In this document: positions 4,535 through 16,626 of the stretch, piece after piece
Numbering within the stretch: position 1 is the stretch's first letter
Layout: every line of letters starts with the position of its first letter
NCBI GenBank assembly: GCA_005239845.1
Contig: SBBD01000070.1
Coordinates: 1-16,629, forward strand
Origin: an archaeon
GTDB lineage: Archaea > Micrarchaeota > Micrarchaeia > Norongarragalinales > SBBD01
Direction of reading: 5' to 3'
DNA: 16,629 nt
The notes under the pieces: generated by a model
The model's database searches: none
The model's input: only the letters and a program-made list of their open reading frames with translations
Told to the model about the DNA's origin: nothing
Position numbers and translations under genes: made by a program

Positions 4535-5065
4535 TTATCGTTTACGGCGTTTTCGAGGAGAGGAAGTAGCTAAAAGAGTTGTTTTGCGGGGCAGGTCGTA
4601 GTAGTACCACAAGGCGTAGTACGTCACGAGAAAGAGGACGAGGGAAACGCGGAAGAGCACGTCGTGGAAAAAGGCAGACACTCCCAGGCTGTTGGAGGCG
4701 AACGATTGGACGGTGAAGGCAATACGGACGGCGTTGAAAACGAGGAGGAGAAAGAGTCCGACCAGAAAGCCTTTGATGCGGTAGGAAAGGGACTTTTCGA
4801 AGGAGGCAAAAAGGAAGCCGAACATCAGCGCGATTTCAATTTTTCCGCTGCACAAGTCGATGATTTCCACCATGAATCCTTGCAGGCTCAGGAAGGGATG
4901 GGAATAGCCTTCCACAACGATGGTGGGGAGGGAAAACAGATTTTGGAGGAGCCAAGCGGAAGAGTAGGCGGCAATGTAGTTGAGCAAGGAAAGGCGTTCC
5001 AGGACGAGGTAGGCAGGCAGGGAGAGGGCTAAGAACAACAAAACGAATTTAAATGCCTTCTTCAA
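4535..5065 (-). CDS. Archaeosortase/exosortase-family transpeptidase
   Basis: A multipass membrane protein with the exosortase/archaeosortase catalytic triad spaced as expected: a Cys in DLCSGKIEIALMFG (residue 72 from TTG 5065), an Arg in FNAVRIAF (114) and a His in FFHDVLFR (134). These enzymes cut secreted proteins at C-terminal sorting signals (PGF-CTERM and similar) and attach them to the membrane or another acceptor. The frame remains open to ATG 5191, but that would run into the divergent site-2 protease gene. TTG 5065 gives a typical N-terminus (a Lys-rich start before the first helix), and TTG 5101 is another option. The basic tail SPRKRRKR is probably cytoplasmic. No substrate with a recognisable sorting tail is seen in this window. 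The subfamily is not determined. Confidence 0.8.
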   Translation of the reverse strand: MKKAFKFVLLFLALSLPAYLVLERLSLLNYIAAYSSAWLLQNLFSLPTIVVEGYSHPFLSLQGFMVEIIDLCSGKIEIALMFGFLFASFEKSLSYRIKGFLVGLFLLLVFNAVRIAFTVQSFASNSLGVSAFFHDVLFRVSLVLFLVTYYALWYYYDLPRKTTLLATSSPRKRRKR

Positions 5066-5161
5066 TTCACTACTAACGTCCTGTTGGCGAGCGCGTTTCA
5101 ACCCTGCATCCCCGCAGGACGCATTATTTTGCGAATGGTTATTAATTGGTGCGTAAAGGCC

Positions 5162-6514
5162 ATGAAAGGCAAAAACAGCGGACAAAAGCATAAGACGGCG
5201 GATAAGTTGAAACTGGTAATAGTGGTAGTTGTATCGTTAGCAATTTTCTTTGCCCTGGCCACGTCCACGCTGAACAATTGGATTAAAGCAGGCTCGCTGC
5301 TCGTACTGTTGGCCGTATCCGGGATGCTCATCCAGCGCCTTTCGGGAATCGAGGGCTATTACGGGCTGCTGATCCTCCGCGGAAAGAAAGGATTCAAGGC
5401 CATGGAGTACTTCTCCGCGAATTTTTCCACGACGGCCAAGCGACTGGCGGACTTCGGGCTCAGCCTGGGGTTTGGCGCGCTCTATTCCTACTGGCTCTTT
5501 GGGAAGGACAAGAAAAAATTCCTATCCCACGTGGCGGCCATGGCCTTCTTGTTCGGGTCCCTGCAGTTCCTGGCAGGCCAACCCTTCAGCGGCTGGGGAC
5601 TCGTGTTCCTGCTCATGAACCTCCTGTTCGGGCTTTTGGCTCTCGGAGTGCAAAGCCTCGTGCTGCAGGGGGCCAAAATCCTTACGACGGCGGACGCGGG
5701 GCCGGGAGCTGCGCTCGTGATCCCTGGCGTTACCGTGCCCTGGGAAGGGATCATCGCCTTGATTATTGCGGCAGGAGTGCATGAGATTGCGCACGGCATC
5801 CTCTGCAGGGTGGAGAAGCTGGAAGTCAAGAACTCGGGCGCCATTCTGCTGGGCATTCTTCCCATCGGCGCGTTCGTGGAGCCCAACGAGGAAAAAATGA
5901 AGGACATGGACCTGCACAAGAAGCGCCGCATCCTGGTGGCGGGCACGACGAGCAACTTCTTCGTCTTCCTGTTCTTCTTGCTGCTGACCCAGCTCGCGGC
6001 ATTCGGGATAGCGGGAATGACCGAACAAGTCAAAATCGTTGGCGTCTCGGAAAAGGGAAGCGCGTACGGAATACTTCAAACCAACGAGTTCATTTACGCA
6101 GTGAACGGCGTACAAGTAAAGAACACGGCGGAATTGCTTGCGGAAGTGAAGAAATACGACGTGGGGGAAACCGTTGCATTTTCGACCAACCTGGGAACCA
6201 AGAACGTCAAGCTGGCGGAAGGAAAGAAAATGGGCGTGTTTTTGCAGGACGCCCCCGCGCCCCAGAACGCGTTCGTCTTCGGAATCCTGGCGTTCGCATT
6301 CCTTGTCTTCAACTTGACGGCGCTCATCAACTTCGCGCTGGCCGTCATCAACCTGATGCCCATCTTTCTAACGGATGGTTACCGTATGGTGTACGAAGAG
6401 GCGCGTGCCGCGTTTCCCTCGCAAGGGGACCGGAAGGCCAAGCGCATCGCCATCGCTGCAGGAATCGTGTCCGTGCTACTGATTCTCATCAACTTCATTC
6501 CCTCGTTCCGCTGA
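5162..6514 (+). CDS. Site-2 protease (M50 family) intramembrane metalloprotease with PDZ domain
   Basis: About 450 residues from ATG 5162, with a hydrophobic N-terminal segment (LVIVVVVSLAIFF) and several more helices. The first zinc motif is HEIAH (about 207-211), followed by a GAFVEPNEE segment, a PDZ-like region (VKIVGVSEKGSAYGILQ, then NEFIYAVNGVQVKNTAELL) and the distal zinc-ligand motif NLMPIFLTDGYRM, with Asp near residue 405. Site-2 proteases cut transmembrane substrates within the bilayer, often releasing regulators or clearing signal peptides. The start was chosen because earlier in-frame codons overlap the divergent archaeosortase promoter region, and TTATTAAT just upstream could be the promoter. 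It is followed 22 nt later by the MoaD-like gene, perhaps in one transcript. The substrate is unknown. Confidence 0.9.
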   Translation: MKGKNSGQKHKTADKLKLVIVVVVSLAIFFALATSTLNNWIKAGSLLVLLAVSGMLIQRLSGIEGYYGLLILRGKKGFKAMEYFSANFSTTAKRLADFGLSLGFGALYSYWLFGKDKKKFLSHVAAMAFLFGSLQFLAGQPFSGWGLVFLLMNLLFGLLALGVQSLVLQGAKILTTADAGPGAALVIPGVTVPWEGIIALIIAAGVHEIAHGILCRVEKLEVKNSGAILLGILPIGAFVEPNEEKMKDMDLHKKRRILVAGTTSNFFVFLFFLLLTQLAAFGIAGMTEQVKIVGVSEKGSAYGILQTNEFIYAVNGVQVKNTAELLAEVKKYDVGETVAFSTNLGTKNVKLAEGKKMGVFLQDAPAPQNAFVFGILAFAFLVFNLTALINFALAVINLMPIFLTDGYRMVYEEARAAFPSQGDRKAKRIAIAAGIVSVLLILINFIPSFR

Positions 6515-7993: not shown

Positions 7994-10150
7994 ATGCCTC
8001 GGAAAGCGGTGAGGAAAAGCATTAGGCTGAAGTGCAGGGCGACGAGCGCCAACCTGGGGGCGGGCTTCGACGTGGCCGGCATGGCGCTGGAAGAGCCTTT
8101 CGACGTCATGGAAGTGACCATAGCAAAAAAAGGAATCCGGATAGTGAATTCGGGCGCGTATGAAGTCCCCACCGAGGCTGCCCAGAACACGTGCGGAGCC
8201 GTCCTACAAGCCATGTGCAAGGATTTTGGCATTGCGGATGGATTTCTGATAAAGATTGAGAAGAGCATTAAGCCGGCAAGCGGGCTCGGGAGCAGCGCCG
8301 CGACGGCAGCCGGAACGGCCGTGGCCCTCAACGAACTGTACCGACTTGGCCTTTCGCGGAAACAACTGGTCCGCTATGCCTCGCTGGGAGAGCAAGTGGC
8401 CGCCGGTTTTCCGCACACGGACAACGTCTCCCCCGCCCTTCTAGGAGGAATCGTCTTTTCCTCGGAGGCAAGCGGAGAGGCGGAATTGGTTCGTTTTCCC
8501 CCCGTTTCCGTGGACGTGCTGGTTATTTTGCCCGACAAGAAAAAAGGGTCCACGAAAGAAATGAGGGCGGCCATCCCGGAAAAAGTGGAATGGAAAAGCG
8601 CCAGAAGCAATTTGCAGGGGCTGGCCCTCTTGTTTGCTGCCGCAGCGGAATCGGATGCGGAAAAGTTTATGGCAGCCGTGCACAAGAAAGACGCCATCGT
8701 GGAGCGGGCGCGAAGCAAGGTCCAGGCACTTTCCCACCTTCCGAAACTTCAAGAGCTGGGGGACGCCTATGGCTTCGGGGTTTTTGCGAGCGGCGCCGGC
8801 CCTGCCGTGCTTGCGGTTTGCCTCCCCTCCAACAAAAACACGCGGGAATTTGAGAAGGAAATCCGACGTGTTTTTGGGGAGCAAAAGGTTGCCGTGGAAT
8901 TGGTTTGGACGAAGATTTCGGAAAAAGGCGTGGAACCGGCATCTTCCGGAGAAAAAGAGTCGTGGCTGCAGTGCACCGAATGCGGAAAGCAAGCGTCCGA
9001 CGACGGAATCCAGTGCGCCATGTGCTCCGGGTTATTGGAAGTCAAACATGATTTTGCTGCAAACATTTCGCGGCAACTGTTCGAAAAGAGGGGAGGTTCC
9101 GGAGTATGGCGGTTTAAGGAACTCGTGCACCCCTCGCTGGAAGAGAAGTTCATCGTCACGAGAGACGAGGGGAACACGTTCCTCTATTCCCATGCGGCCA
9201 TCGACCGGTACGCAGGCGTTTCAGGAATCTTGCTGAAGCATGAAGGGGAAAACCCGACGGGGTCCTTCAAGGATAGGGGGATGACGGTCGCCGTTTCAGA
9301 GGCCCGCAGAAGAAGAGCGAAGCGCGTGGCGTGCGCCTCCACGGGAAACACGTCCGCCTCCATGGCCGCCTACGCTTCCCTGGCCTCCATCCCTTCCACC
9401 GTATTCATTCCGGAAGGCAAAATCGCGGCAGGAAAACTCTCGCAATCCCTGGCATATGGCGCTGCCATCGAGCAAGTGGAAGGCAACTTCGACGCCGCCA
9501 TGGAAAAAGTGCAGCAGGAAAGCAAATCGCAGGGAATGTATCTGCTGAACTCCGTCAACCCGTGGAGGATCGAAGGCCAAAAAACCATCATTTTCGAGCT
9601 GCTCCTGCAGCTGAAATGGAAGGTTCCGGAATGGATTGCCGTCCCTGCAGGAAACTTGGGGAACACGTCCGCGTTCGGAAAAGCGCTCGAGGAGGCCTAC
9701 GAATTGAAGCTCATCGACAAAATCCCGAGGCTTCTTTCCGTGCAGGCGGAAGGAGCGGCTCCGTTCTTTCGACTATGGAAAAACAAGCAAGAAAAACTAG
9801 TGTCCGAATTGAGGCCTGAAACGGTTGCGACTGCCATCCGGATCGGTAATCCGGTAAGTTGGAGGAAAGCCTTGAAAGCGATCACCTTCACGAAAGGAAT
9901 CGTGGAAAAAGTTTCGGACCAAGAAATCATGGAAGCCAAGGCTGTAATTGATGCGGCAGGAATCGGGTGCGAGCCCGCCTCTGCCGCAACGCTTGCGGGG
10001 GTAAGAAAAGTAGCAAAAGCAGGAATAATCCAGGAAGGGGAAAAAGTAGTGTGCATCCTGACGGGGCACTTGCTGAAAGACCCGGACGCCACGATTCAAT
10101 ACCACAAGAAAAAGCTGGAACTAAGCAAACCAAAATTACAACGAAGTTAA
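7994..10150 (+). CDS. Fused homoserine kinase-threonine synthase (ThrB-ThrC)
   Basis: One 718-residue frame holds two enzymes. Residues 10-310 are a GHMP kinase of the homoserine-kinase type: ATSANLGAGFDVAGMAL (16-32), the ATP loop KPASGLGSSAATAAG (93-107) and ASGAGPAVLAV (265-275). After a short Ser/Glu linker, residues 325-710 are threonine synthase: a zinc-ribbon-like cluster with Cys 327, 330, 341 and 344, then ENPTGSFKDRG with the PLP lysine K426, and STGNTSAS (449-456) for the phosphate. The kinase makes O-phosphohomoserine and the synthase converts it to threonine, so the fusion could channel the intermediate. The reading frame is uninterrupted. GGGAG sits directly before ATG 7994, 11 nt after the upstream PLP-enzyme gene, so these are co-transcribed. 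The convergent nuclease gene ends 15 nt away. Confidence 0.93.
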   Translation: MPRKAVRKSIRLKCRATSANLGAGFDVAGMALEEPFDVMEVTIAKKGIRIVNSGAYEVPTEAAQNTCGAVLQAMCKDFGIADGFLIKIEKSIKPASGLGSSAATAAGTAVALNELYRLGLSRKQLVRYASLGEQVAAGFPHTDNVSPALLGGIVFSSEASGEAELVRFPPVSVDVLVILPDKKKGSTKEMRAAIPEKVEWKSARSNLQGLALLFAAAAESDAEKFMAAVHKKDAIVERARSKVQALSHLPKLQELGDAYGFGVFASGAGPAVLAVCLPSNKNTREFEKEIRRVFGEQKVAVELVWTKISEKGVEPASSGEKESWLQCTECGKQASDDGIQCAMCSGLLEVKHDFAANISRQLFEKRGGSGVWRFKELVHPSLEEKFIVTRDEGNTFLYSHAAIDRYAGVSGILLKHEGENPTGSFKDRGMTVAVSEARRRRAKRVACASTGNTSASMAAYASLASIPSTVFIPEGKIAAGKLSQSLAYGAAIEQVEGNFDAAMEKVQQESKSQGMYLLNSVNPWRIEGQKTIIFELLLQLKWKVPEWIAVPAGNLGNTSAFGKALEEAYELKLIDKIPRLLSVQAEGAAPFFRLWKNKQEKLVSELRPETVATAIRIGNPVSWRKALKAITFTKGIVEKVSDQEIMEAKAVIDAAGIGCEPASAATLAGVRKVAKAGIIQEGEKVVCILTGHLLKDPDATIQYHKKKLELSKPKLQRS

Positions 10151-14077: not shown

Positions 14078-14320
14078 AAGCGTGGCAGAAGCTGCAAATA
14101 TGCATCACGTGACGCACTTTTAATTTCCAATGTTTAAAACAGAGCCCAATAAAAACAAAGACAGCCAACAAACACTTCACCAATGTTTCCAGCGCTAAAA
14201 ATGCTCCTTTTACCTCCAATAACACTAATTTAGACGATTGTCTGCCAAATACTAATATAATGTTACTACCGACAAGTTTATATATGAGCTTTGTCATATA
14301 ATGATAGGCGATAGCGAGCT
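14078..14320. other. AT-rich intergenic region before the small-membrane-protein operon
   Basis: These 243 nt are clearly richer in A and T than the coding DNA on either side. The right end holds the promoter of the next gene. A minus-strand frame of 83 codons crosses it and the end of map but has no supporting start signal or recognisable family. No tRNA, hairpin series or known RNA was recognised. An untranslated regulatory region or small RNA cannot be excluded. Confidence 0.5.
14277..14285 (+). promoter_or_regulatory. TATA box for the small-membrane-protein operon
   Basis: TTTATATAT lies 36-44 nt before ATG 14321. The expected transcription start is near 14305, giving a leader of about 15 nt. 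It is one of the best TATA matches in the window. Confidence 0.6.
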
Positions 14321-14695
14321 ATGGCAAAGGTCACGCTGCGGGAGCTCAAGGAACTGGCTCCTCACATTGAAGCGCAGGAAGCCCAGCACAAGAACTACCA
14401 AGTGCTTCCCATGTTCTTGCCTACAGATATCAGCGCCAAGAAGGGGACGGGCGTCGTCAAGGTCGTCACCAGGCAGAACTTCATGAACGAAGGCATCGGG
14501 AACTGGGTGCTTTACAATACATACCGCGGAGGCGCCGTCGCGCTTGGAGTACTGGCACTCGTGACCTTTCCCGTAAACATTTACTTGAGCGCGTTGTTTG
14601 GCCTGGGGGCCGGGTATTCTTACGGAAAATTCAAGTTCAAGGACTTCATCATCAACCACCAGCTGCGCGAAAGGTGGCTGCTCGAGGGAACGTAA
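14321..14695 (+). CDS. Small two-helix membrane protein, family A copy 1
   Basis: A 124-residue protein I cannot assign to a known family. A polar N-terminal half contains VLPMFLPT (28-35) and VVKVVTR (45-51). Two hydrophobic helices follow (about 70-84 and 87-100, the latter YLSALFGLGAGYSYG), and then a basic C-terminal tail ending ERWLLEGT. The same landmarks in the same order occur in the protein encoded at 15587-16231: LPIYLPT, LLTR, a YR pair before the helices, and YLSAVFAYLAGY. The two are therefore paralogues, although overall identity is low. The TATA box at 14277 suggests this gene starts an operon running to 16545. Possible roles include a subunit of a membrane complex or secretion-like apparatus, which is inference from context only. 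Confidence 0.75.
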   Translation: MAKVTLRELKELAPHIEAQEAQHKNYQVLPMFLPTDISAKKGTGVVKVVTRQNFMNEGIGNWVLYNTYRGGAVALGVLALVTFPVNIYLSALFGLGAGYSYGKFKFKDFIINHQLRERWLLEGT

Positions 14696-14708
14696 GCAAA
14701 GAGCTAAC

Positions 14709-14804
14709 ATGTGGTCGGGAAAAAAAGAAAAAAAAATGGAATGGAAAAAGCGGGGAAAGCGGGTGAACCGTTGGAGAAGAACGCTGGAAGAAGAGGTCGT
14801 ATAA
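14709..14804 (+). CDS. Possible 31-aa basic microprotein
   Basis: ATG 14709 to TAA 14804 encodes 31 residues, very rich in Lys, Arg, Trp and Glu (for example KKRGKRVNRWRRTLEEEVV). There is no clear ribosome binding site, and the DNA is purine-rich (AAAAAAAGAAAAAAAAA), which by itself yields Lys-rich codons. It fills much of the 194-nt gap between family A copy 1 and family B copy 1. Confidence 0.2.
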   Translation: MWSGKKEKKMEWKKRGKRVNRWRRTLEEEVV

Positions 14805-14817
14805 GAAAGAGGGCACC

Positions 14818-14880
14818 ATGCCTAAAAAGAAGAGGAAATGTCGGGGGTTAGCGTTAGAGGTTACAAGGGAAGAGAGGTAA
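14818..14880 (+). CDS. Possible 20-aa basic microprotein
   Basis: ATG 14818 to TAA 14880 encodes MPKKKRKCRGLALEVTREER. GAAAGAGGGCACC upstream is a weak ribosome binding site. The TAA is 9 nt before the next gene start, and the AGAGAGGTAA at the end of this ORF also supplies the Shine-Dalgarno site of that gene. It could be a coupling leader ORF or chance. Confidence 0.2.
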   Translation: MPKKKRKCRGLALEVTREER

Positions 14881-14889
14881 GCAGCCAGT

Positions 14890-15273
14890 ATGTCGCATGA
14901 ATCACTACACGACGGCCATGTAGAAACGAGGGACACGGAGCTCGTGGGGTTACAGAGCACGCGGGGCGGGGCCAACGTGACGCCCATGAAGACCCTCTCC
15001 TACTTGGAAGTGGACCCGAAAGTCCGTGCAAACATGCGTGCGTCCACGCGTTGGGACTACGTCTCGGAATACATCGGGTACTGGATCGACAACAAGCGTT
15101 TCTGGGTATTGGCCGTGCTGTTCGTGGGAGCCGGCATTTTGCTGTTGGACGTTTTCGCGCCTGTCGGCCTCTTGATGATTGCCGTGGGCGCCAAATACAG
15201 GAACATCGCGTGGATGGACAACTTCATTTACGCCAAGTTCGGCCGCTACAGGTCGCTGGTGCTGGTGGACTAG
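14890..15273 (+). CDS. Small two-helix membrane protein, family B copy 1
   Basis: A 127-residue protein of no recognised family. The N-terminus is hydrophilic and His/Glu/Thr-rich (about 1-35). Then comes an amphipathic segment with TRWDYVSEYIGYW (53-65), a tight hairpin of two hydrophobic helices (about 71-87 and 89-103) and a short tail. The protein at 16243-16545 has TRWTYISRYLELW in the same place before the same kind of hairpin, so these are paralogues. GAGGT (14874-14878) lies 11 nt before ATG 14890, which is somewhat long. It sits 9 nt before gene D and is probably translated from the same mRNA. The hairpin topology recalls VirB3/TraL-like secretion proteins in size, but I see no diagnostic motif. 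Confidence 0.75.
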   Translation: MSHESLHDGHVETRDTELVGLQSTRGGANVTPMKTLSYLEVDPKVRANMRASTRWDYVSEYIGYWIDNKRFWVLAVLFVGAGILLLDVFAPVGLLMIAVGAKYRNIAWMDNFIYAKFGRYRSLVLVD

Positions 15274-15282
15274 GGGAAAAAA

Positions 15283-15585
15283 ATGGTAAATATAGGTTTT
15301 CCAAAGTTCGGGGATTCGAAGCCAAGAGTGTGGGTAGGAGGCGAAGTATCGGAGACCACGGACGCGCCCGCCCTTCACCGCGAACACGTGAGGGACTCGA
15401 GCCTGCCCGTGCAGTTCATGACGCTCGTGGAAGACTTCACGCCAATAAAACCCGTACGCGGCGAACTCAACAGTTTCGAGGACGGCATGTTCCGTGTCGG
15501 ACTGTTCGGCTTGAGCCAGCGCCAAATCTTCCTCTTGATCACGGTGGGATTGATGTTTGCGTTGCTGCAGATAACGGTGGGGTAG
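15283..15585 (+). CDS. Small tail-anchored protein (gene D) with a PrgI-like GLSxRQ motif
   Basis: A 100-residue protein with a soluble N-terminal part (KPRVWVGGEV, then LPVQFMTLVEDFTPIKP, 41-57) and one hydrophobic helix at the very C-terminus (about 82-97). Directly before the helix it reads FRVGLFGLSQRQIF. A Gly-Leu-(Ser/Thr)-x-Arg-Gln step before the first helix is characteristic of PrgI-type (VirB3-like) proteins of type IV secretion systems, but this protein lacks the second helix such proteins normally have. The resemblance is therefore suggestive only. GGGG lies 5 nt upstream of the ATG. The stop at 15583-15585 is 1 nt before the GTG of the following gene, so translation is likely coupled. 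Confidence 0.72.
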   Translation: MVNIGFPKFGDSKPRVWVGGEVSETTDAPALHREHVRDSSLPVQFMTLVEDFTPIKPVRGELNSFEDGMFRVGLFGLSQRQIFLLITVGLMFALLQITVG

Positions 15586-15586
15586 A

Positions 15587-16231
15587 GTGCACAAGCCAGT
15601 CAACATGCGTTTGCAGGACATCCGCTCGTTTGTTTTGGAAGGAGGCGGCGATAGCGGAAGCCACGAACATGGCGGCGGGCTTGCAACTCATGCCGTGCAC
15701 AGGAGCGGCCTCGCAAGAGGCCATGCAGGCGGACACGGAAGCCATGGAGTTCACGGTGGGCACGGAGCGCATGGCGGAGGCCATGGTGGGCACGCGCCTC
15801 ACCCCGAGATTCCTCACGTGGAAGGCGCCAACCCGCTCATGGACGACTATTTGCGCCCGGACAGCACTCAGGCCGCAGACCGCCTTCCCGAGTTTGAAGG
15901 AAAGCGCATGCTTCCCATCTACTTGCCTACTTCCGCTAAAGACATTCAAGGTGACGGCAAGCCCGTCAACTCGGTGAAGCTGCTCACGAGGGCCGCACTC
16001 ATGGATGACGTGCTGAATGAAGATTACAAGAACGGAAGCGTGGGAGCCATTTACCGCGCCTATTTCATGGCGTGGGTGTGCGTCGGCCTCACCATTCTCG
16101 GCCTGAGCATCAGCCCCTACCTTTCCGCGGTTTTCGCCTACCTCGCGGGGTATTATTGGAGCGAGAAGGACTTGAGTGTCGGCTGGAGTATTCAATGGTG
16201 GAAAGGAAAGACGCTCACGTACACCCAGTAA
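15587..16231 (+). CDS. Membrane protein, family A copy 2, with a 14-His Gly/His-rich linker
   Basis: A 214-residue protein with a GTG start, supported by GGTGG at 15576-15580. ATG 15605 has no such site. Residues 1-18 form a short amphipathic piece. Residues 26-77 are almost entirely Gly, His and Ala with 14 histidines in GH/GGH/GSH spacing, likely a flexible metal-binding linker. Residues 108-191 repeat the family A pattern: MLPIYLPT (108-115), LLTR (132-135), YR (156-157), then two helices including YLSAVFAYLAGYYW (178-191). The C-terminus is Trp/Lys-rich (WSIQWWKGKT). It is about 90 residues longer than copy 1, and nearly all of the extra length is the N-terminal linker. The role is unknown. 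The duplicated A-B arrangement suggests both A proteins serve in one complex. Confidence 0.75.
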   Translation: MHKPVNMRLQDIRSFVLEGGGDSGSHEHGGGLATHAVHRSGLARGHAGGHGSHGVHGGHGAHGGGHGGHAPHPEIPHVEGANPLMDDYLRPDSTQAADRLPEFEGKRMLPIYLPTSAKDIQGDGKPVNSVKLLTRAALMDDVLNEDYKNGSVGAIYRAYFMAWVCVGLTILGLSISPYLSAVFAYLAGYYWSEKDLSVGWSIQWWKGKTLTYTQ

Positions 16232-16242
16232 GGTGACCAATC

Positions 16243-16545
16243 ATGGAAGACCACATCGAACGAATGCCGCCGGTGCAAATGACGTCCGTGCTGGCAGACG
16301 TGAAGAAGCCCTTCCTCAAGATGACCACGAGGTGGACCTACATCTCGCGGTACCTCGAGCTCTGGAAGGAAAGCATCCGCTTCCGCAGCTTTGCCGCGGT
16401 GTCTTTCGTGGCCGGCATCGTCCTTTTGACCACGATTCCCATCATGAGCATCTTCGCGTTCGCGGCCGCCGCGTATTACTGGGAACTGTACAAGTTCCGC
16501 CGGCACCGTCTCGAAAGCCAAAGGTCCGTGATGATCGGGCACTAA
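16243..16545 (+). CDS. Small two-helix membrane protein, family B copy 2
   Basis: A 100-residue protein paralogous to the one at 14890-15273. It has a polar N-terminus, TRWTYISRYLELW (29-41), a helical hairpin (about 48-64 and 66-81) and a strongly basic tail (KFRRHRLESQR). GGTGA (16232-16236) lies 6 nt before ATG 16243. It is the last gene of the probable operon and is followed within 5 nt by a series of hairpins. No family is recognised. As with copy 1, size and topology would fit a small subunit of an envelope-spanning complex. Confidence 0.75.
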   Translation: MEDHIERMPPVQMTSVLADVKKPFLKMTTRWTYISRYLELWKESIRFRSFAAVSFVAGIVLLTTIPIMSIFAFAAAAYYWELYKFRRHRLESQRSVMIGH

Positions 16546-16549
16546 CTGA

Positions 16550-16626
16550 CCCCTCTAGGGGGCTTTGCCCCCTACTCGGGATACGCAAAACCCCGCGTTT
16601 TGCTATCCGCCTAAACTGCGGTTTAG
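16550..16626. repeat. Three consecutive hairpins after the operon
   Basis: Hairpin 1 pairs AGGGGGC (16557-16563) with GCCCCCT (16567-16573) over a TTT loop. An alternative pairing, CCCC (16550-16553) with GGGG (16558-16561), competes with it. Hairpin 2 pairs GGATA and GCAAAAC (16579-16591, one bulged C) with GTTTTGC and TATCC (16597-16608). Hairpin 3 pairs CTAAAC (16611-16616) with GTTTAG (16621-16626). The density of exact palindromes suggests a dispersed palindromic repeat, a transposon end or a structured 3' UTR rather than a simple terminator. Confidence 0.7.

Follow-up and report, generated by a model that had tools for sequence, protein, structure and literature searches.

The operon and its genes

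Here we describe an operon of five small membrane-protein genes, A1, B1, D, A2 and B2, at the right end of contig SBBD01000070.1, from an archaeon of the order Norongarragalinales in the Micrarchaeota. The window, that is, the whole stretch of DNA analysed, is this entire contig of 16,629 bases, from a 1.19 Mb assembly that is 70% complete; all five genes lie on its plus strand, and the contig ends 84 nucleotides (nt) beyond B2 (Table 1). A sequence-only reading of the window had proposed a duplicated A-B gene pair in the order A1-B1-D-A2-B2. That order holds, whereas its count of four small membrane proteins does not, as the stretch has five such genes. The motifs it had named recur letter for letter where it had placed them: A1 carries LPMFLPT, VVTRQ, TYRG and YLSALFGLGAGY, A2 carries LPIYLPT, LLTRA, IYRA and YLSAVFAYLAGY, and the corresponding motif of the B proteins reads TRWDYVSEYIGYW in B1 and TRWTYISRYLELW in B2. 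The genes downstream of B1 are separated by 9, 1 and 11 nt, within the 1-11 nt it had given.

Between A1 and B1 lies a longer gap (14696-14889), which in the window is A-rich in places and 194 nt long, versus 14 nt in genome G001; Rfam, consulted for an RNA leader, gave no match in the window. For A2, the GTG start finds support in P0003, a relative that aligns along the entire query; a single-protein search with A2 returned 14 relatives. The inverted repeat directly 3' of B2 possibly marks the transcript end. D is a possible adaptor. The His-rich stretch of A2 was considered as a general metal-binding feature and set aside, with at least 4 His per 20 residues in 8 of 25 A2 proteins vs 33 of 246 background open reading frames (ORFs).

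Table 1. Coordinates of the operon genes and flanking elements in the window (BRE, B recognition element).
Feature	Coordinates	Strand	Description
Promoter element TGTTACTACC-G-ACAAGT-TTATATAT	14261..14285	+	Conserved block 5' of A1
Proposed activator box	14261-14270	+	Label from presumed promoter anatomy
BRE-like stretch	14272-14277	+	Label from presumed promoter anatomy
TATA box TTATATAT	14278-14285	+	Starts 43 nt 5' of the A1 start codon
A1	14321..14695	+	ORF, 124 residues, hairpin paralogue
B1	14890..15273	+	ORF, 127 residues, hairpin paralogue
D	15283..15585	+	100 residues; LED motif (conserved); a single membrane helix predicted at the C-terminus
A2	15587..16231	+	ORF, 214 residues, GTG start, hairpin paralogue; N-terminal stretch His/Gly-rich
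B2	16243..16545	+	ORF, 100 residues, hairpin paralogue
Inverted repeat TAGGGGGC-3-GCCCCCTA	16556..16574	+	Repeat search; directly 3' of B2

One superfamily of predicted membrane hairpins

Profile comparison, with E-values that are pairwise and not database values, joined A1 to A2 (E=2.4e-18) and B1 to B2 (E=4.7e-17), and also linked the A and B families to each other in all four A-B pairings (E from 1.1e-12 to 3.9e-7). As membrane hairpins may score through composition, reversed-alignment controls were run; real pairs scored 50-108 and reversed controls 16-31. The family alignments were built without the window's own proteins P0001 and P0056. The sequence-only reading had described A and B as two families, and the profiles show these to be homologous to each other.

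The tree of 103 rows, made after trimming A1, A2 and B1 at their N-termini, separates A from B with support of 100/99, and recovers A2 (99/93) and B1 (99/81) as single clades. One long row (G018) breaks up A1, and the five extra B-type copies fall within B2; we use only the main splits, because the alignment has few columns and drew a warning from the tool. On these profiles and this tree, A1, B1, A2 and B2 are shown to be copies of one ancestral protein, and the topology suggests that the copies separated before the order diversified. The simplest history is that one hairpin gene gave rise to A and B, and that the A-B pair was then copied, both before the diversification of the order. The tree and the profiles, together with the conserved order described below, back the proposal of a duplicated A-B pair in one operon.

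D forms a conserved family of its own. As a candidate member of the superfamily it was rejected, its best score being 27.2 to B2 (49%) and its others at the level of the reversed controls. In two genera of family f7 (L050, L051, L053, L054) D has additional length and what looks like a second membrane helix, giving it a hairpin-like appearance.

Distribution and gene order

Within the phylum, the operon is restricted to the order of the window. The B1 profile matched 26 of 301 phylum genomes, comprising 26 of the 29 genomes of the order and none of the 272 others; the A1 profile likewise matched 26 of the 29, including all eight that are at least 90% complete. Ribosomal protein L2 (RpL2), taken as a yardstick, is present in the order as often as A1 (26/29). 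As a single query, A2 found matches in 25 of 60 related genomes, all of the window's order, and in none of the 31 outside it; A2 alone detects A1 in its own genome at E=0.004. Among about 5.8 billion proteins, the B1 profile returned 41 matches and the A1 profile 29 (the window's own included), all at E<=1e-22 and with no tail of weak relatives, although very distant relatives may escape this search because it requires shared short words. Most of these matches are unnamed and the named ones are from Micrarchaeota, except P0043, whose source label, Candidatus Marsarchaeota, is likely wrong.

Passages of PMC8561730 give LFW-144_1 as the type of Candidatus Norongarragalina meridionalis in the order Norongarragalinales, and describe this order as consistently sister to all other Micrarchaeia. 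No such operon is described in the titles and abstract openings of literature on Norongarragalina and Norongarragalinales, on Micrarchaeota membrane, S-layer (surface-layer) or hypothetical proteins, or on UBA8480 archaea, nor in passages of PMC12892359, PMC8561730 and PMC11329633, where mention elsewhere in the text is possible.

Gene order was compared in 25 neighbourhoods and the window, which, after removal of L040 (at a contig edge) and L049 (a probable duplicate), gave 24 loci from six families; L036 was retained as intact although its B2 reaches the contig end, and G020, which carries the operon, was seen within short match loci only. In all 24 intact loci the order A1-B1-D-A2-B2 is kept on one strand, with a D counterpart between B1 and A2 even in five diverged loci, so that the survey of related genomes recommended by the sequence-only reading bears out its pairing of the genes. 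Five loci hold an extra B-type gene, which lies between D and A2 in three of them (L043, L045, L047) and between A2 and B2 in L044, and precedes A2 at the edge of the contig in L040. L049, a second operon contig of G012 (G012:C41), has the same scores for A1, B1, A2 and B2 as the G016 copy (L048, G016:C32); it was probably binned into the wrong assembly, and was excluded from the tree, codon and locus counts.

Restricted distribution and the lack of known relatives are what might be expected of a mobile or viral gene cassette. Against this origin stand the presence of the operon in 26 of the 29 genomes of the order, its conserved gene order, the absence of relatives in viral contigs (0 among 68 pattern matches) and the lack of any plasmid match with B1, and we give it almost no credence.

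Beyond the operon genes, no neighbour is common to all fetched loci. CTP synthase is encoded downstream, on the operon strand, in 12 loci from five families (one Pfam-checked), and three loci from two families have a KaiC-type ATPase (one Pfam-checked). In family f5 an S-layer gene lies divergently upstream of the operon in eight of nine loci (L035, L036, L037, L039, L041, L042, L046 and L048; PF05124 in two tested), the only other case being on a contig of an f2 assembly that is probably a duplicate. Most f5 S-layer genes have GAGGTGGTT in common just before their start. The associated ATPase for which the sequence-only reading had advised a search did not materialise, as no ATPase is constant among the neighbours. 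The main rival to the interpretation developed below has the products acting as a channel or transporter, or as an accessory membrane arm of an energy-coupled complex (for example, one bound to the A-type ATPase), with the paralogues filling distinct positions in a ring; we consider it fairly unlikely.

A promoter element specific to the operon

The TATA box noted 5' of A1 is present, and begins 43 nt upstream of the A1 start codon. It forms the end of a near-invariant block, found by reading the 120 bases 5' of A1 at each of 24 loci, with the 25-bp consensus TGTTACTACC-N-RNAAGT-TTATAWAT. A search with the pattern GTTACTACNNNNAAGTTTA, allowing at most one mismatch, located it upstream of A1 in 25 of the 26 operon-bearing genomes (26 sites with the second G012 contig); G018 has a degenerate copy with two mismatches. 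Conservation extends beyond the pattern to a T before it, a C after GTTACTAC, an A before AGTTTA and the remainder of the TATA box. In 24 of 25 genomes, 32-98 nt separate the end of the element from the A1 profile match downstream. In G005 (L126, G005:C71:14975) the element is 363 nt ahead of the A1 match.

This promoter element is specific to the operon. The best shared 16-mer upstream of A1 has a mean of 14.6 of 16 matches (24 loci), versus 12.2 upstream of CTP synthase (7 loci), 12.6 upstream of S-layer genes (8 loci) and 10.2-10.3 in three shuffles; within the control genomes only, the A1 value is 14.8 (6 loci, CTP synthase set) and 15.0 (8 loci, S-layer set). Away from the operon the pattern occurs five times across the 29 genomes, and five times in the reversed control; across the 272 genomes outside the order, a slightly stricter pattern gave 8 matches vs 12 in the reversed control. 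A relaxed pattern found 32 sites in the 29 genomes, of which seven are away from the operon vs four in the control, and from such numbers no regulon can be read. We propose that the element comprises an activator box directly 5' of a BRE-TATA core, the activator and BRE labels being those that we presume from archaeal promoter anatomy.

A common strong promoter might equally serve small membrane proteins that act independently and form no single complex, the more so as physical interaction between the products is deduced rather than observed. Yet in six families every paralogue has stayed in its place, with D separating the two pairs, which is difficult to square with independence; we judge such independence quite unlikely.

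Codon bias

In all 24 genomes with neighbours, among 25 examined, the operon uses C-ending codons more often than its median neighbour gene does, and 91 of the 100 neighbour genes fall below their own operon in this measure. The odds ratio stratified by amino acid exceeds 1 in 23 of the 24 genomes, with a median of 1.71; codon counts of the other genomes were made without the D genes. The operon also exceeds RpL2 in 9 of 14 genomes. This bias supports high expression of the operon, as far as codon choice can indicate it.

Compared with the S-layer gene, the operon has more C-ending codons in two of seven genomes and the values are close, which, with the divergent S-layer gene in f5, lends some weight to a complex for S-layer assembly or anchoring. 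That linkage is nevertheless a feature of f5 alone, bar the one probable duplicate contig, and the S-layer gene does not share the promoter element, which occurs once per locus. S-layer domains PF05123 and PF05124 were found in none of the five window proteins and are present in the divergent neighbour gene of f5. We consider this function unlikely.

Predicted structure and searches for known relatives

Structure models were made for A1 and B1. AlphaFold2 predicts a long helical hairpin in each, spanning residues 51-82 and 87-114 in A1 (predicted template modelling score, pTM, 0.50) and 54-85 and 90-118 in B1 (pTM 0.54), with a predicted local distance difference test (pLDDT) value >90 across most of the hairpin helices and, in A1, two strands ahead of the hairpin. 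The uncharged core of the hairpin has a median length of 27-35 residues in the four families. Mean net charge is positive C-terminal to the core in all four; ahead of the core it is +2.0 in A1, +2.2 in B2, +0.2 in B1 and -0.4 in A2. Given these flanking charges, both ends of the hairpin are likely to be on the cytoplasmic side. Conserved positions occur at the helix start (TR) and in the C-terminal tail (R-x-hydrophobic-hydrophobic).

The sequence-only reading had recognised no known family, and we find no credible relative either, across Pfam, NCBIfam, PHROGs, PDB sequences and fold searches. Pfam, searched with the window proteins and every member of the four family alignments, gave weak or generic matches only, the best being LapA_dom in 1 of 24 B2 proteins (E=0.0033) and Cg6151-P in 1 of 25 A2 proteins (E=0.0078); PGPGW matched 5 of 42 B1 members (best E=0.04). 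Profile searches of NCBIfam and PDB sequences were similarly weak or generic, PHROGs matched only at E>=0.28, and Foldseek gave no match at E<=0.001. VIA-align 2 lists sulerythrin, ferritin, V-ATPase f, Vtc1 and others, all of them plain helical hairpins, and families beyond those listed are possible. Both outcomes that the sequence-only reading had held against itself were looked for, and we saw neither a placement of the proteins in unrelated known families nor a scattering of unpaired genes.

The small hairpin proteins of this operon are reminiscent of VirB3 and CedA1, and might belong to the inner-membrane portion of a VirB3-like or Ced-like machine for type IV secretion, conjugation or DNA import. 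No match to VirB3 (PF05101) exceeds the cut-off in any of 60 genomes, and the weak matches in 24 of the 60 are never at the operon contig. For VirB4 (PF03135, a bacterial-type model only; archaeal HerA/CedB-type ATPases were not searched genome-wide), none of the 60 genomes is over the cut-off and G011 has one weak match. Type IV secretion is disfavoured, and we consider such a machine very unlikely.

Proposed role

Our leading reading, which we put a little short of an even chance, is that the operon encodes a probably abundant hetero-oligomeric membrane complex that is core to Candidatus Norongarragalinales, and whose likeliest role is structural. One complex is favoured because all paralogues are retained near-universally, in fixed order and with a dedicated promoter; the proposal that they are paired subunits is consistent with this strict co-retention. 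A structural role is favoured because we find no recognised enzymatic domain and no constant energy partner such as an ATPase, and because of the codon bias. The operon products would then be subunits of one hetero-oligomer in the cytoplasmic membrane, descended from a single hairpin gene that gave A and B, the A-B pair having been copied around D. Each paralogue would insert one hairpin, with both ends probably cytoplasmic; the strands ahead of the hairpin and the C-terminal tail are proposed as contact edges through which the paralogues may take alternating places in a fixed ring or lattice that D would serve as adaptor. Such a membrane scaffold or lattice, beneath the S-layer, might shape or stiffen the membrane, or anchor other machinery. 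The hairpin fold of A1 and B1 is predicted by modelling; assembly, topology, abundance and the scaffold role are what we infer.

Several points weigh against this interpretation. The operon is missing in three of the 29 genomes (G007, G021 and G025; completeness 78-83%). Codon bias is a weak proxy for expression, given that RpL2 itself scores above its neighbours in no more than 9 of 14 genomes. The pTM values of both models are such that only the helices are trustworthy, and positive charge, clear after the hairpin, is clear before it in A1 and B2 only. Finally, the negative result for enzymatic domains derives from sequence and fold searches, which are blind to some folds.

A bolder version of the structural complex, which we regard as an outside prospect, is that an undescribed membrane lattice or ring, made of four or five ancient paralogous hairpins and an adaptor, and expressed from a promoter with a dedicated regulator, constitutes a defining and essential envelope innovation of the order that is sister to other Micrarchaeia. 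In any case, an order-wide core operon that is seen nowhere else in the phylum, and has no recognised relative, offers a strong lead to lineage-specific cell biology in archaea known here from genomes alone, and its promoter element is an unusually well conserved archaeal control sequence. Three questions become testable: do old paralogous hairpins come together in a set order, does a single promoter have a regulator to itself, and did a lineage with a reduced genome invent its own membrane architecture?

Other genes in the window

Elsewhere in the window, positions 7994-10150 (+) encode a 718-residue protein with a GHMP-kinase domain and a pyridoxal phosphate (PLP)-dependent (PALP) domain, which we take to resemble a homoserine kinase-threonine synthase fusion. 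An exosortase-like protein (4535-5191, -), slightly below the Pfam cut-off, is divergent to an M50 peptidase (5084-6514, +), and this pair is also adjacent in G001 (L031 71-667, 733-2112).

Comparison with known systems

The operon proteins resemble VirB3-type subunits in that both are short membrane-hairpin proteins encoded in an operon, although VirB3 and similar type IV secretion hairpins have no Pfam match in the operon proteins. Reticulon-type proteins are membrane-shaping hairpins, and the likeness lies in a hairpin with both ends probably cytoplasmic; in contrast, no sequence relation was found, and the operon proteins have one hairpin each. The hairpin geometry of subunit f of the yeast V-ATPase Vo (8eas, 8eau) is generic, and neither a Foldseek match at E<=0.001 nor a sequence relation to it was found; Vtc1 of the yeast VTC complex (7ytj, 8i6v) is listed in the VIA-align results as a plain helical hairpin. 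Set beside these systems, the operon is new in sequence and in architecture, and its function may yet prove familiar.

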